Assembly (NCBI GenBank): GCA_936450465.1
Contig: OW388296.1
Coordinates: 49,551,750-49,615,749 of the forward strand
Length of the DNA: 64,000 bases
Direction: 5' to 3'
From: Gibbula magus
Lineage: Eukaryota; Mollusca; Gastropoda; Trochida; Trochidae
Part shown: in pieces, positions 14,667 to 51,222 of the stretch
Layout of the letters: every line of letters begins with the position of its first letter
Position numbering within the stretch: position 1 is the stretch's first letter
Notes under the pieces: generated by a model
Seen by the model: the letters and a program-made list of their open reading frames with translations, nothing else
Told to the model about the DNA's origin: nothing
The model's database searches: none
Position numbers and translations under genes: made by a program

Positions 14667-15020
14667 GACCTTTCTATGTTTTAATTTTACACACAAAAAT
14701 AAGTCCAGAGGATCAGTGATTAATTAACTCAGAGGTTCCTTTCATTTTATTTAGAGTTTTGCCTACACATTTTAGACGAAGGTTCTGTTGATATAAACAG
14801 ATAGTAGGATATTTGAAGAATATGTTATTGGATGGGGTTTAGTTTGTTCGATGACATAAATGGGGTTTTTTAAATATTGTAAGAAAATGCATTATTTTGT
14901 ATGGTTTGACTAGACTTGAAGGGGCCTTTTCAAATATTTGTTTTATTGCACCTGTTAGATTTAATTATTTCTAATTCAACATTTTTTTTATTTTCTAAAC
15001 AATGGCATTGTTTCAAGTCA

Positions 15021-15054
15021 TCTTTCTTGCTATTTGTTAGCCCTGAAAAGGGCT
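15021..15054 (-). terminator. Histone-type 3' processing signal of acidic gene 1
   Basis: On the minus strand, 15054-15039 reads AGCCCTTTTCAGGGCT: a 6-bp stem with TTTC loop that matches the replication-dependent histone stem-loop consensus except that the outermost pair is A-T instead of G-C. Nine bases later comes CAAGAAAGA (15029-15021), the classical purine-rich histone downstream element recognised by U7 snRNA. It starts about 44 bases after the stop codon, as in histone genes. The identical arrangement is found after the paralogue at 18846-18879. Confidence 0.85.
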
Positions 15055-15097
15055 GTCAGAACGTCCTGTTCTGTAATTGAGTGTTCAGCTGCTCTGT

Positions 15098-15544
15098 TCA
15101 GCTGATTGTGGCGTCCATCTCTTCCTCCTCAACTTCCTCCAAGTCAACCTCCTCATCTTCCTCCTCCACATTCTCGTCTCCTCCTTCATCCATTAGGTCC
15201 TCGACACCCTCGTCTCTCTCCCAGTCCTCATCGTCTTCACTGTCCTCGTCCTCGTCCTCCGAGTTACCGTCCAGCTGAGACACTTCATACCGCAGTTCAG
15301 CAACTCTCTCCGCCTTCTCACAGGCGTACTCGTAATACGCGTTGCGTACTCCTTCCACGCAGGCCATTTTAAGACGAAGGTTGTATCTGAAGGAACGATG
15401 ATTCTCGGTCCTGGCCTTGTCATAACGACGCTGCAGACCCTCCAACTTGTCGTTCAGGAGAACGACCTGCTCACACCCCTTCTTGAACTTCATCTCGGTT
15501 TCCCGGAGGTTCGAATACAGTTCTTCATTGTTCAGGTTGTCCAT
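15098..15544 (-). CDS. Small coiled-coil protein with acidic tail, tandem copy 1
   Basis: An intronless frame of 148 residues. Residues 1-90 are charged and helical with heptad-like spacing (for example VVLLNDKLEGLQRRYDKART), suggesting a coiled coil. Residues 92-148 are almost entirely Asp, Glu and Ser. The ATG is supported by the equivalent start in the paralogue at 19360 and by a TATA box about 55 bases upstream. There is no signal peptide or membrane segment. I do not recognise the family. The acidic tail and histone-type 3' end suggest an S-phase or germline chromatin-associated or chaperone-like role, which is inference only. It is about 90% identical to copy 2 over the first 90 residues, whereas the tails differ in length and order. 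Confidence 0.8.
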   Translation of the reverse strand: MDNLNNEELYSNLRETEMKFKKGCEQVVLLNDKLEGLQRRYDKARTENHRSFRYNLRLKMACVEGVRNAYYEYACEKAERVAELRYEVSQLDGNSEDEDEDSEDDEDWERDEGVEDLMDEGGDENVEEEDEEVDLEEVEEEEMDATIS

Positions 15545-15597: not shown

Positions 15598-15790
15598 TTT
15601 AAATAGCTGGTAACCGACCTGCCATTTGGAATTACAGTAAACTCTCCGCCTGCCATGACGTAACTAATTAGCGTGTTAATCAACTGGCTTGAAGAACAAG
15701 TGGCTGTCACGGGTGGACGATCACGTGTCCGCTGTGCTGACAATTAGCTGTCAACGAGGCGTGTTAAAAAGTAATGTTATTCTAACTGTC
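15598..15790 (-). promoter_or_regulatory. Conserved compact promoter of acidic gene 1
   Basis: TATTTAAA lies at 15605-15598 on the minus strand, about 55-60 bases before the ATG. Upstream of it, to about 15790, the sequence is strongly conserved with 19431-19620 ahead of the paralogue, including TTACGTCATGGCAGG (a CRE/ATF-like TTACGTCA) and AACACGCTAATTAG. The short distances imply a 5' leader of only about 25-30 bases, similar to histone genes. Confidence 0.65.
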
Positions 15791-17689: not shown

Positions 17690-18078
17690 GGTGAGGTATG
17701 ATGGCTGAGAGGGGCCATTTGATTTCGTGTTAACTTTCCAACACGAAATCGCGAAATCGCGAAAAAATCAAAACGAAATCGCGAAATTTAACGCCGCTTT
17801 CAAGAGTAGTTCACTTATATCGCGGCCGCTAGCATTTTGGCAGGGAGAAAGCCCGCAACGCCATGTGGCTATGCACTGCGGTGAAAGCTGAGAGCATCGT
17901 CTGGAACTAGCGAACCATGGGTGGAACTACGTTGAAATTCAGTGTAGCATTGCACCCAAACCTTACTGCCTGTAGAACAGTTCTCTACTGTATACAAAGT
18001 TGCCGTGCCCCTGACGGGATTCGAACCCCGGACCTCTTGATCCGAAGCCGAACGCGCTAACCACTGCGCCCTTCATTA
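17690..18078 (-). mobile_element. tRNA-derived SINE with internal CGAAAT repeats
   Basis: On the minus strand it starts with a tRNA-like head (18072-18009) carrying an A box (TGGTTAGCGCG) and a B box (GGTTCGAATCC), followed by a body shared with copies at 29744, 39630 and 43963, and the TTAAACG tail core. A run of 'cgaaatcgcg' units at 17745-17788 interrupts the tail. The flank CATGTTTGAAGAGATCAACA is shared with the copy at 39630, so these two copies have an extended common unit. Confidence 0.75.
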
Positions 18079-18845
18079 ATATGAACAGATATTTATTCTA
18101 GTATGATGACGTTTCTTTAGCAAGTGAGTTTATGTCTGTCAGTTGGTAGTTGTGATTGGAACAGTCTACTCATTCGGTAATGCTCCCTTTACACTGGATG
18201 GGGACCTGGTTTCTTTGAAAGTATTCAAAACGCCTTTAAATCCTCGAATAATTCACGTAGAAGGCCCGAAAAGGCAAGGTGAAGGCACAATGAATTAAGG
18301 CGCGAAGAAGGCAGAATGATTGGGTAAGTCGTAATTCGAAAACAGAACATAATGCCTTTGCCACGAGAGGTACAGATATTCGACGAATTCTTTTTTTAAA
18401 ACCATTTCAGCATATATATTGAAAATACAATCATAGCAAGTGCGTGACCCATTATGAAGATTTGCTAAATTAATGGAACTTCAATGCAGTCACCATCAAC
18501 TGTCCATAATATCCTTCATTACAGAGTTCTAGCATACCGTAGAACCTAGCATAGATCGATCCTTTATGGCTTTCATAATGACTATGTTCAATACTTCGAC
18601 ACTCATTTAGCTAGAGGAGATTTATTTGAGAGTTTAAGATATTATAGAGATATGTCTCAGTTGCTGTAATGTCAAACCCCCTGAAGATTAAGTTGAAACA
18701 TATTATAAGGCGGACATGATGGTCATTTTATTTGTTCTAGTCAGTGTAACCGGAATTTTCTTTTAAGGCTATCTAGTCCTATGCCATGTTTGTTTCAATT
18801 TAAGTATTTATAGTTTTTGTATATTAAACGCATTGTTTCAAGTTT

Positions 18846-18879
18846 TCTTTCTTGCTATTTGTTAGCCCTGAAAAGGGCT
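18846..18879 (-). terminator. Histone-type 3' processing signal of acidic gene 2
   Basis: The minus-strand AGCCCTTTTCAGGGCT stem-loop (18879-18864) is followed after nine bases by CAAGAAAGA (18854-18846). Both elements and their spacing are identical to those at 15021-15054, while other 3' flanking bases differ. It lies about 52 bases after the stop codon. Confidence 0.85.
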
Positions 18880-18931
18880 GTCAGAACGGCCTGTTCTGAA
18901 ATTGAGTGTGCAGCTGTTTTAGTACTAGACT

Positions 18932-19360
18932 TCAGATGTCTGCTGCGTCCATTTCTTCCTCCTCCTCAACCTCCCCCTCCACATTCTCTCCATCCTCTCC
19001 TTCTTCCATGACGTCTCCATCCCAGTCCACGTCGTCTTCGCTCTCCTCCTCCTCCTCATCATCATCATCATCATCATCCTCCGAGTTGGAGTTCAACAGG
19101 GATAACTCGTATCGCTGTTCAGCAACTCTCTCCGCCTTCTCACATGCGTATTCGTAATACGCGTTGCGTACTCCTTCCACTGTGGCCATTTTAAGACGAA
19201 GGTTGTATCTGAAGGAACGATGGTTCTCGGTCCTGGCCTTGTCATAACGACGCTGCAGACCCTCCAACTTGTCGTTCAGAAGAACGACCTGTCCACACGC
19301 CTTCTTGAACTTCATCTCGGTTTCCCGTAGGTTCGAGTATAGTTCTTCAGTGTTGTCCAT
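18932..19360 (-). CDS. Small coiled-coil protein with acidic tail, tandem copy 2
   Basis: An intronless frame of 142 residues, paralogous to the gene at 15098-15544. The first 84-90 residues differ at only a handful of positions (for example KFKKACGQVV against KFKKGCEQVV, and KMATVEGV against KMACVEGV). The last 50 residues consist almost wholly of Asp and Glu, with an uninterrupted run of seven Asp and then five Glu that shows repeat expansion (GAT/GAG codons). No signal peptide, membrane segment or known domain is seen. Same strand, same promoter block and same histone-like 3' end as copy 1, so this is a functional-looking tandem duplication rather than a retrocopy. Confidence 0.8.
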   Translation of the reverse strand: MDNTEELYSNLRETEMKFKKACGQVVLLNDKLEGLQRRYDKARTENHRSFRYNLRLKMATVEGVRNAYYEYACEKAERVAEQRYELSLLNSNSEDDDDDDDEEEEESEDDVDWDGDVMEEGEDGENVEGEVEEEEEMDAADI

Positions 19361-19422: not shown

Positions 19423-19620
19423 TTTAAATATCTGAGAATCGACCTGCCATTTGGAATTACAGTAAACTCTCCGCCTGCCATGACGTAACTAATTAGCGTG
19501 TTAATCAACTGGCTTGAAGAACAAGTGGCTGTCACGGATGGACGACCACGTATAGGCTGTACTGACAATTAGCGGTCAACGAGGCCTGTTAGTGCTGTTA
19601 TTCTAACTGTCTGAGCGAGC
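19423..19620 (-). promoter_or_regulatory. Conserved compact promoter of acidic gene 2
   Basis: TATTTAAA (19430-19423, minus strand) lies about 65 bases ahead of the ATG. The upstream block to 19620 is nearly identical to that of copy 1, including TTACGTCATGGCAGG and the sequence complementary to ACAAGTGGCTGTCACGG. Conservation stops near 19620. Confidence 0.65.
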
Positions 19621-23511: not shown

Positions 23512-25623
23512 ATGGGAGCTAAACTACCAAAGGAACTGCGTCTCAACAACGTGTGCTTGAACAGGTGCTCGTCTCAGTGCTTCTACACTTCTCAGGTGAG
23601 ACATTATGACCTCAAAGAAATGGTTGGACCTGGTGTTGTTGTTTTTTGCTTTGAAATACACTAATGGGCAAAAGAAACTTGACCTTATTTTATACAGAGT
23701 CAAACACATAGAGGATATTGTATGTATATGAGTGTCTATGTCATACTATGTTTACGACACATTTGGGTGAATATTAGTATTTCCCGAGCGAGAGCGAGGG
23801 ATATACCGATATTCAGACACGAGACTTAGACACGACATAGACTTATAACTTGGAAGAGAGTTATATAATTGAAACGACACACTGTTTCACTTAGAAGTTG
23901 ATAATCAAAGAAGAATTCTAATTGGATAGGTAAATCGTGCTTTATAAATAAGCTGATAATTGAGAGAGCTACGGCTTCAAAGTTTAACCATAATTCATAG
24001 AGGAAAGCTATGCTTTGACCATACTTAACATACATGTAGGTTTATAGTAGTTCATTCAAATATCAATTATATTTATAAAAGCAGTAACATCATAGTTCGC
24101 ATATAAATCTAAGACCGTAACAATAAGTCATCCTCGATAACAATGAATATCTACTGAGCTTTATCGGAACGTATCCCCTGGAGTTCTCAAGGATGGGAGG
24201 AGGTGGGGTCAAGACACTACGTTCTAATGGCTAGATTAGTATTGGACTCGTTTGTACCAGGGAAAAGTTGGGTCAAGGTAAACAATTACTTATATCATTC
24301 CAACAATTTCTTAGTATTCAAATATCGACCAATATGTATTCTATTTTCCAGTGGCGATGCCCCTACCCTGTATATCTCGCCTATCGGTGGATACTGGCCC
24401 TCTATACTGTGAGCGCATTTATCTACATGGTGGTTGTGATACAACAGCTCCATACCAGCCACCCTGCACAGAGCCACAGCGCAATGGTGTACTTAACGTC
24501 TTGGGCGTATCTGGCGTTGACGTGTCACTTTGTACTTGCTGCCGTCATAACGTCGATTTGCAGCACCAAGAGGAATCCGCATTTAGACGTCGAATCTCCT
24601 GGTCAAGTTTCGAGTGGAAATCTGGACATGGGGTTAAAGTCTTTGAGAACAAAGCAACCAGATACTTCACCCCACGTTTGCAGCCAGGATGTCAAGGGGA
24701 CACCGAACTCGGACGCCGAATCTACTGGTAAAGGTTCTCGTAAAAAGGACAGGAAATCTAAGTATTTGAGAGGCGAAGAACGATATACTGTCCTACCTGT
24801 TATTGCTTCTGGTACTGGGAAGTTAGAAACTGTTAACAAAGGGATAAGTCGTTGTACAGAAACAAGGCAACTAGAACAAGATTCTTCCATCGTCACACAC
24901 GTTTCAGAGCATGGAAGTACCTCTGAAGAACCCAATGAGGATGACACACTTGAGCGTGATATAACAGATAGCATAGGTGATTCATATAAAGTCGATGATT
25001 ATCCTTTGAACACATCACACTTTACAAACGTGGAACACATTGAATCCGGGCATATTGTTCCCGACGAAACCATTGATAATGGAAGTGACGTTGAGCGTGA
25101 TAGAACCCACAGAGACTTGAGTACCACAAACAATGCCAATGGGAGTGTTGATGGAAACGAAGTGGTGAGCACTGACGGTGCTGTTATACCATGGTATTGC
25201 AAACTGTCATGGGTTCTAGCAAATATATCCTCCACATTCTCCCTTGTGGTGACTGGTATCTATTTCGGAGCGATGTTCAAAGGGTCATTCCGAGATATAT
25301 TCAATGACGTCAACACTCATATTCTCAACGCTGTTTTGGCCATTTTGGACAACTTCATCAGCGCTCGACCGACTCGTATACTTCACGTTGTCTACTCGCT
25401 TGGCTTCGGTTCATTGTACCTCATCTTCAGTGTGGTTTTCTGGGCTGTTGACCCTCGTAACGTCATTTATCCTGGTTTAACAGACTGGAACAACCCGGGT
25501 GTTTCCTCAGCTGTCTCTGCAATAATAGCCTTTCTTATTTTCATATTTCATGGACTTCATTTTGTCATGTATAAAATAAGGCTTAGAATATTCTACAGAA
25601 TTTATAGACCTCGGGCACATTGA
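23512..25623 (+). CDS. Rolling-stone-family multi-pass membrane protein
   Basis: Exon 1 is 23512-23595 (28 residues, beginning MGAKLPKELRL and ending TSQ) and exon 2 is 24352-25623, phase 0, giving 451 residues. The SQ|WRCP junction and following hydrophobic segments match the start of rolling stone (Rost) family proteins, first known from Drosophila myoblast fusion. Predicted helices: about 37-61, 72-98, 312-334, two between 345 and 390, and 405-430. Residues 100-308 form a hydrophilic, Ser/Asp/Glu-rich loop, making the protein much longer than the roughly 270-300 residues usual for the family. The ATG at 23512 is in good context and follows an AT-rich leader. Cellular role in this animal is not known; plasma-membrane location is inferred. 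Confidence 0.8.

Positions 25624-31493: not shown

Positions 31494-51222
<19,729 letters not shown>

Follow-up and report, generated by a model that had tools for sequence, protein, structure and literature searches.

The 3' ends of histone mRNAs are formed by a pathway that comprises SLBP, the U7 snRNP and CPSF73. Published summaries describe histone mRNAs as the only known animal mRNAs that end in a stem-loop (PMC6303110; PMC10388802), and present the stem-loop together with a downstream element as the marks of replication-dependent histone genes (PMC2642717; PMC5011920); among molluscs, stem-loops have been reported for clam histone mRNAs (PMC6210712). In the literature, as represented by the titles listed and the opening parts of abstracts, with few subscription papers among them, no description was found of a histone 3' end on a gene for another kind of protein. 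The family described here, from the gastropod Gibbula magus, is conserved, encodes a non-histone protein and carries the full signal; it thus breaks the "histones only" rule at the sequence level.

The window, i.e. the whole stretch of 64,000 nucleotides that was analysed, corresponds to positions 49551750-49615749 of chromosome 8 of G. magus; the genome note gives 1,470.4 Mb for the genome, and 80.45 and 77.31 Mb for chromosomes 8 and 11, respectively (PMC10394393). A first-pass annotation had proposed that one gene in it has a stem-loop after the stop codon and, nine bases further on, a histone downstream element. We confirmed this arrangement, with CAAGAAAGA as the element, in both copies of the gene present in the window, whose features are as follows (window coordinates):

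15098..15544, minus strand: coding sequence of copy 1, 148 aa, single frame including the stop codon (ORF analysis)
15039..15054, minus strand: histone-type stem-loop AGCCCT-TTTC-AGGGCT of copy 1 (AGCCCTTTTCAGGGCT), 43 nt 3' of the stop codon
15030..15038, minus strand: spacer of copy 1, 9 nt, AACAAATAG, between stem-loop and downstream element
15021..15029, minus strand: purine-rich histone downstream element of copy 1, CAAGAAAGA
15005-15010, minus strand: CAATGC of copy 1, inside the 62-nt model match
14999..15060, minus strand: 62-nt match of copy 1 to the own-histone covariance model, end to end, 54.1 bits, E 1.2e-9
15598..15605, minus strand: TATA-like box of copy 1, TATTTAAA, 54 bp 5' of the ATG, assigned by eye
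18932..19360, minus strand: coding sequence of copy 2, 142 aa, single frame, same family as copy 1
18864..18879, minus strand: histone-type stem-loop AGCCCT-TTTC-AGGGCT of copy 2, identical to that of copy 1
18846..18854, minus strand: downstream element of copy 2, CAAGAAAGA, identical to that of copy 1
18824..18885, minus strand: stretch of copy 2 fitting the own-histone covariance model, 58.8 bits, E 1.1e-10
19423..19430, minus strand: TATA-like box of copy 2, TATTTAAA, assigned by eye

The gene had also been called intronless with short UTRs, and this appears to hold: copy 1 runs from ATG to stop in one frame, with the stem-loop and the TATA-like box at the short distances listed, which is the single-exon, short-UTR organisation of replication-dependent histone genes as far as the sequence allows it to be judged. 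The TATA-like box was recognised by eye in all six chromosome 8 members of the family. These came from a protein search of the genome, which placed six genes on chromosome 8 and a further 144 matches on chromosome 11; the counts are lower bounds, since 150 of 1164 candidates were scored. Five of the chromosome 8 genes form a loose cluster at 49.567-49.636 Mb, which holds the window copies, and one lies at 53.8 Mb. At a distance of 59-66 kb the two window genes are matched by closely similar copies on the other strand, next to which lies a further copy (C8:49566850-49635971); the arrangement resembles an inverted segmental duplication immediately beyond the window. By eye we noticed a second inverted repeat, CAGAAC...GTTCTG, on the minus strand just 5' of the stem-loop (window 15057-15073 and 18882-18898). 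It occurs in five copies of the window cluster, with the outer pair broken in one (L006); the chromosome 8 gene L004 has TAGAAC...GTTCTA instead, a paired double change, and no repeat of this type was seen in the chromosome 11 unit.

The closest described system is provided by the core histone genes of the animal itself. H4 has 70 matches in the G. magus genome (60 full length at 100%; 10 partial, changed or interrupted), with arrays at the end of chromosome 8 and on chromosome 2. About one repeat unit was read from each array (loci L055 and L056); each unit carries H3, H2A, H2B and H4 in ~4.1-4.2 kb, and no H1 was recognised in these two pieces. The 3' ends of all four genes have the form AAC-GGTCCTTTTCAGGACC-ACCAAAT, followed by a purine-rich stretch (e.g. 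ATCTCAAAAGAGAAC) and CAATGC. GGTCCTTTTCAGGACC is found in nine of the ten ends, the remaining one (an H2B) having a loop change, and ACCAAAT, the purine-rich stretch and CAATGC follow the stem in all ten. A covariance model trained exclusively on eight of these ends, with the second H4 copies left out, found two strong places in the whole window, namely copy 1 and copy 2, the third-best of its eight rows reaching 15.4 bits (E 0.57). Applied to 12 further loci, the same model returned 28 rows: the six chromosome 8 genes, all recovered at 52.8-63.5 bits, 20 places in the chromosome 11 array at 29.2-40.8 bits, and two weak rows at 15-17 bits.

The family and the histone 3' ends can be aligned over about 60 nt, with a layout that is common position by position; chromosome 8 copies align with the H4 end without gaps, and array units with a one-base insert. 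Invariant in all 19 aligned rows are AC before the stem, nine of the 16 stem-loop columns, CAAAT and AATGC, and the array paralogues have ACAAATATCTTAAAAGA in common with H2B save one or two bases. The putative downstream element (CAAGAAAGA in five chromosome 8 copies, CACAAAGGA in L004, TCTTAAAAGA in the array) aligns with that of the histones at the histone distance. The family thus resembles the core histone genes in its uninterrupted reading frame, in a stem-loop of 6 bp and 4 nt near the stop codon with a purine-rich element equally far from it, and in the occurrence of tandem arrays; CAATGC, further downstream, is common to the histones and the chromosome 8 genes, with TAATGC in the array. 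It differs in encoding a non-histone protein, in its stem (AGCCCT/AGGGCT versus GGTCCT/AGGACC, with an A-U instead of a G-C closing pair), in the spacer (AACAAA versus ACCAAA) and, for array units, in the loop UAUC. The general Rfam model Histone3 (RF00032) is less sensitive to it: the window copies score 17.5 and 19.9 bits and the family members 17.5-25 bits, versus 34.8-39.5 bits for the ten own histone ends, so that a scan of the window gave no match at the gathering cut-off of 34, and copy 1 (in L001) is absent from the matches at E <= 1. The proposal of a non-histone gene with a replication-dependent histone 3' end is nevertheless supported by the strongest sequence test available, because the likeness to the H3, H4, H2A and H2B ends extends over about 60 nt, beyond the hairpin alone.

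The stem itself bears signs of constraint. Between histones and family, pairs 1 and 3 have changed on both sides (G-C to A-U and U-A to C-G) with pairing kept, which together with the model scores identifies a histone-type stem-loop of 6 bp and 4 nt, and some array units have a U-G intermediate at pair 3. Pair 2 is constant, and its G, which SLBP is reported to require (PMC10388802), is present and paired in 18 of 18 distinct rows. Altogether 99.1% of stem cells are paired, versus 91.4% in shuffled alignments, none of 500 of which came as high, and sliding the partner by one to three columns lowers pairing to 12-67%. Two of five covariation measures fall within the shuffle range (both-side changes, 304/500; pair types, 500/500); independent events are few, since the rows represent three related groups, namely histones, chromosome 8 genes and array units. 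When copy 1 is compared with one array unit, anchored and without gaps, 17 of 20 positions are identical from the start of the stem-loop, versus 0-4 of 10 in each of 13 other 10-nt windows; this comparison understates the likeness 3' of the stem, where the one-base insert shifts the register and a gapped alignment is fairer. At synonymous sites, divergence between the two gene types has reached saturation. The sequences thus show a 3' signal held under constraint while the sequence preceding it diverged.

Histone-type 3'-end formation is the best reading of these genes, which combine a complete histone-type signal in the form used by the animal's own histones with a non-histone protein that is conserved and with paralogues arrayed in tandem at high copy number. 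We consider it very probable that a non-histone protein family has here joined the replication-dependent histone regime. By analogy with the histone pathway, Pol II transcripts of these intronless genes would be expected to be cut and not polyadenylated: SLBP would bind the AGCCCT-TTTC-AGGGCT hairpin, the U7 snRNP would pair with the purine-rich element 3' of it, and cleavage would take place about 5 nt past the stem. From the same pathway we infer that the mRNA lacks poly(A) and is made and kept mainly in S phase, alongside those of the histones. A search with the Rfam family for U7 snRNA gave no match in the genome, and none in any control genome either. Such genes could have been missed, as poly(A)-selected RNA libraries would presumably under-represent them. 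As a natural experiment, the family also allows the recognition requirements of SLBP and U7 to be tested.

Compatible with histone-type processing is the possibility that the genes have dual 3' ends, the histone-type end being used in dividing cells and a downstream poly(A) site in others. Sequences resembling AATAAA lie 3' of several copies, i.e. within about 100 nt of several chromosome 8 genes and also 3' of the array stem-loop, so that poly(A) ends could form there, and H2A.X has been reported as a precedent (PMC7807067). H2A.X and the dual-signal histone genes likewise combine a stem-loop with possible downstream poly(A) signals, although they encode histones, and the poly(A) signals considered here are putative. 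On the other hand, the flanks examined by eye contain no poly(A) signal at a shared position, and such hexamers are expected by chance, the flank being A+T-rich. We therefore regard dual ends as possible but rather doubtful.

Chromosome 11 carries a tandem paralogue array, to which 144 of the 150 scored protein matches belong. The array stem-loop element has 407 matches genome-wide with at most two mismatches (reversed control: 0); the 100 of these that were listed all lie on chromosome 11 at 46.10-46.34 Mb, and array units run on to at least 46.705 Mb (C11:46100000-46706000; loci L021, L024-L027 and L039). We infer that nearly all 407 belong to the array, which would apparently place most of the family in about 400 copies. 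On one strand there are 401 of the 407 matches, the other six lying around 46.186-46.193 Mb, and an ORF resembling reverse transcriptase by eye breaks the array in L039 (2-2056). Sampled neighbours are spaced by 1337, 1338 or 1347 bp in 23 of 35 cases, and each unit comprises a single gene of 101 aa. The array thus differs from the histone repeats in having one gene in ~1.34 kb, versus four in ~4.1-4.2 kb, and in occupying a separate chromosomal place. Its 407 element matches compare with 60 identical full-length H4 genes, which means that a protein hitherto undescribed is apparently encoded in more copies than H4 in a mollusc genome. The stem-loop is missing from its fixed offset in one of 47 units, in which the frame stops early. 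Among 54 sampled units, 40 have an intact ORF (from the usual ATG), 14 do not, and 52 have a fully paired stem, in a favourable sample restricted to units with at most 25 differences from the consensus and without length change. Distinct variants among the units number 30 that change an amino acid and 9 synonymous ones, which is near neutral given an expected ratio of 3.69.

Histone arrays undergo concerted evolution and tolerate dead units, and near-neutral change among units would be expected in a redundant array that evolves in this way. The hundreds of near-identical units, the 14 without an intact frame and the near-neutral change between them could also be explained if the array were a selfish, satellite-like repeat with a captured histone 3' end, its proteins having no role in the organism. 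We find this improbable in view of the strong constraint on the protein: dN is 0.12, with saturated dS, between the gene types; two chromosome 8 gene pairs have dN/dS values of 0.042 and 0.049, and a third pair differs by 7 synonymous changes and no non-synonymous one (four of seven named genes were kept, three chromosome 8 copies having been dropped by the start-codon pattern). It is also at odds with the 514 database matches described below, including those from Patella, Mya and Dreissena, and with the fact that the animal's own H4 has imperfect matches too (10 of 70).

Searches for relatives of the protein support a family conserved in other molluscs, both gastropods and bivalves, as judged by sequence likeness. 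A first protein search gave 55 relatives, an alignment-based search 514 database matches, and a third one, with a distant member as the query, 7 proteins; 24 columns are invariant across 57 protein sequences. Six of the 120 listed among the 514 matches carry species names (Mya arenaria, Patella caerulea and Dreissena polymorpha, e.g. MAR_007173, SNE40_011378 and DPMN_063043, respectively), all annotated as "hypothetical protein"; profile search assigns them to the same family, and their records bear neither a function nor a Pfam domain. For 53 of the first 55 relatives the longest source contig measures 0.6-2.6 kb, and the 514 matches include two clusters of 135 and 35 members, which hints at arrays in other species, but fragmentary assemblies fit as well. 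In two proteins predicted from Mya arenaria (P0056 and P0057) the helical domain occurs repeatedly in the same chain, which may reflect either fused array units or a gene-model artefact. No relatives were found in viral contigs (three alignments) or other genome contigs (two alignments), and the canonical histone 3' end pattern yielded no relative in viral contigs.

According to the first-pass annotation, the protein is not a histone but a coiled coil with an acidic tail. Its non-histone character is upheld, as is the tail, whereas a two-helix hairpin is predicted in place of the coiled coil. The AlphaFold2 model of copy 1 has helices at residues 6-47 and 50-93 and a poorly ordered acidic tail, with block means of pLDDT of 95-99 for residues 11-90. 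The core carries a net charge of +1 to +3. The tail charge is -34 in copy 1 and -33 in copy 2, compared with -6 in proteins of the array type, so that a long acidic tail is a feature of the chromosome 8 genes and not of the family at large. The two window proteins match no Pfam family at its cut-off. Across the 57 members, 22 families are matched weakly and in a scattered manner, with no histone family among them; we rejected these matches as a guide to identity, all those of the window proteins being below the cut-offs and the best one (E 0.0002) being confined to a single member. A PDB sequence search gave at best E 0.051 (BAP31), and a CENP-S match at E 0.16 over 34 residues is within noise. 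Foldseek found nothing in the PDB at E <= 0.001, its top rows being helical hairpins of ING and LSD1 (E 0.34-0.53), a fold too generic for a function name to be derived from such matches. The genes, then, encode neither a core nor a linker histone. As the 3' end, the tandem arrangement and the uninterrupted frame are shared with histones, one might think of the protein as a histone, or a variant of one, that has diverged strongly, which would leave the "histones only" rule intact; the Pfam results, the predicted hairpin of two long helices, which is not a histone fold, and the Foldseek and CENP-S results make this highly improbable.

If the family has indeed entered the histone regime, the acidic tail and an expression presumably shared with the histones suggest, with less weight, a chromatin-associated or histone-escort protein that would be needed in bulk at DNA replication, e.g. 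in oogenesis and cleavage, and such a need would explain the high copy number; another role in S phase or in the embryo is an alternative. As a tentative proposal, molluscs may possess, beside the histones, a further class of array-encoded replication-dependent proteins, namely an abundant acidic-tailed hairpin protein made in S phase via SLBP and U7 and acting, in the egg and the embryo, either in the assembly of chromatin or in the storage of histones. We deem this possible, though short of probable; if it is true, the rule that this kind of 3' end is confined to histones does not hold for animals.

Simulations address the signal of the window copies from another side. The strict stem-loop followed within 30 nt by AAGAAAGA was found at two places when both strands of the window were scanned, and in none of 60 simulated 64-kb single strands generated with a first-order Markov model; the strict stem-loop alone has a frequency of 0.13 per simulated strand. 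With loose patterns each part alone is at chance level in the window, with 5 matches versus 3.8 expected for the stem-loop and 25 versus 28 expected for CAAGAAAGA with at most one mismatch. A chance coincidence of a hairpin and a purine run is refuted by the simulated pairs, by the own-histone model (E 1e-9 to 1e-10) and by the recurrence of the stem-loop behind each of the six genes on chromosome 8 as well as behind hundreds of array units.

Other features of the window include a weak tRNA-like stretch at 18015-18070 that scores 25.5 bits, short of the cut-off, and may be a SINE of tRNA origin, a 429-aa ORF matching the Pfam family Rost (protein rolling stone) at 24334-25623, and a LINE-type element with an 831-aa ORF that contains endonuclease and reverse transcriptase domains at 46165-48660.
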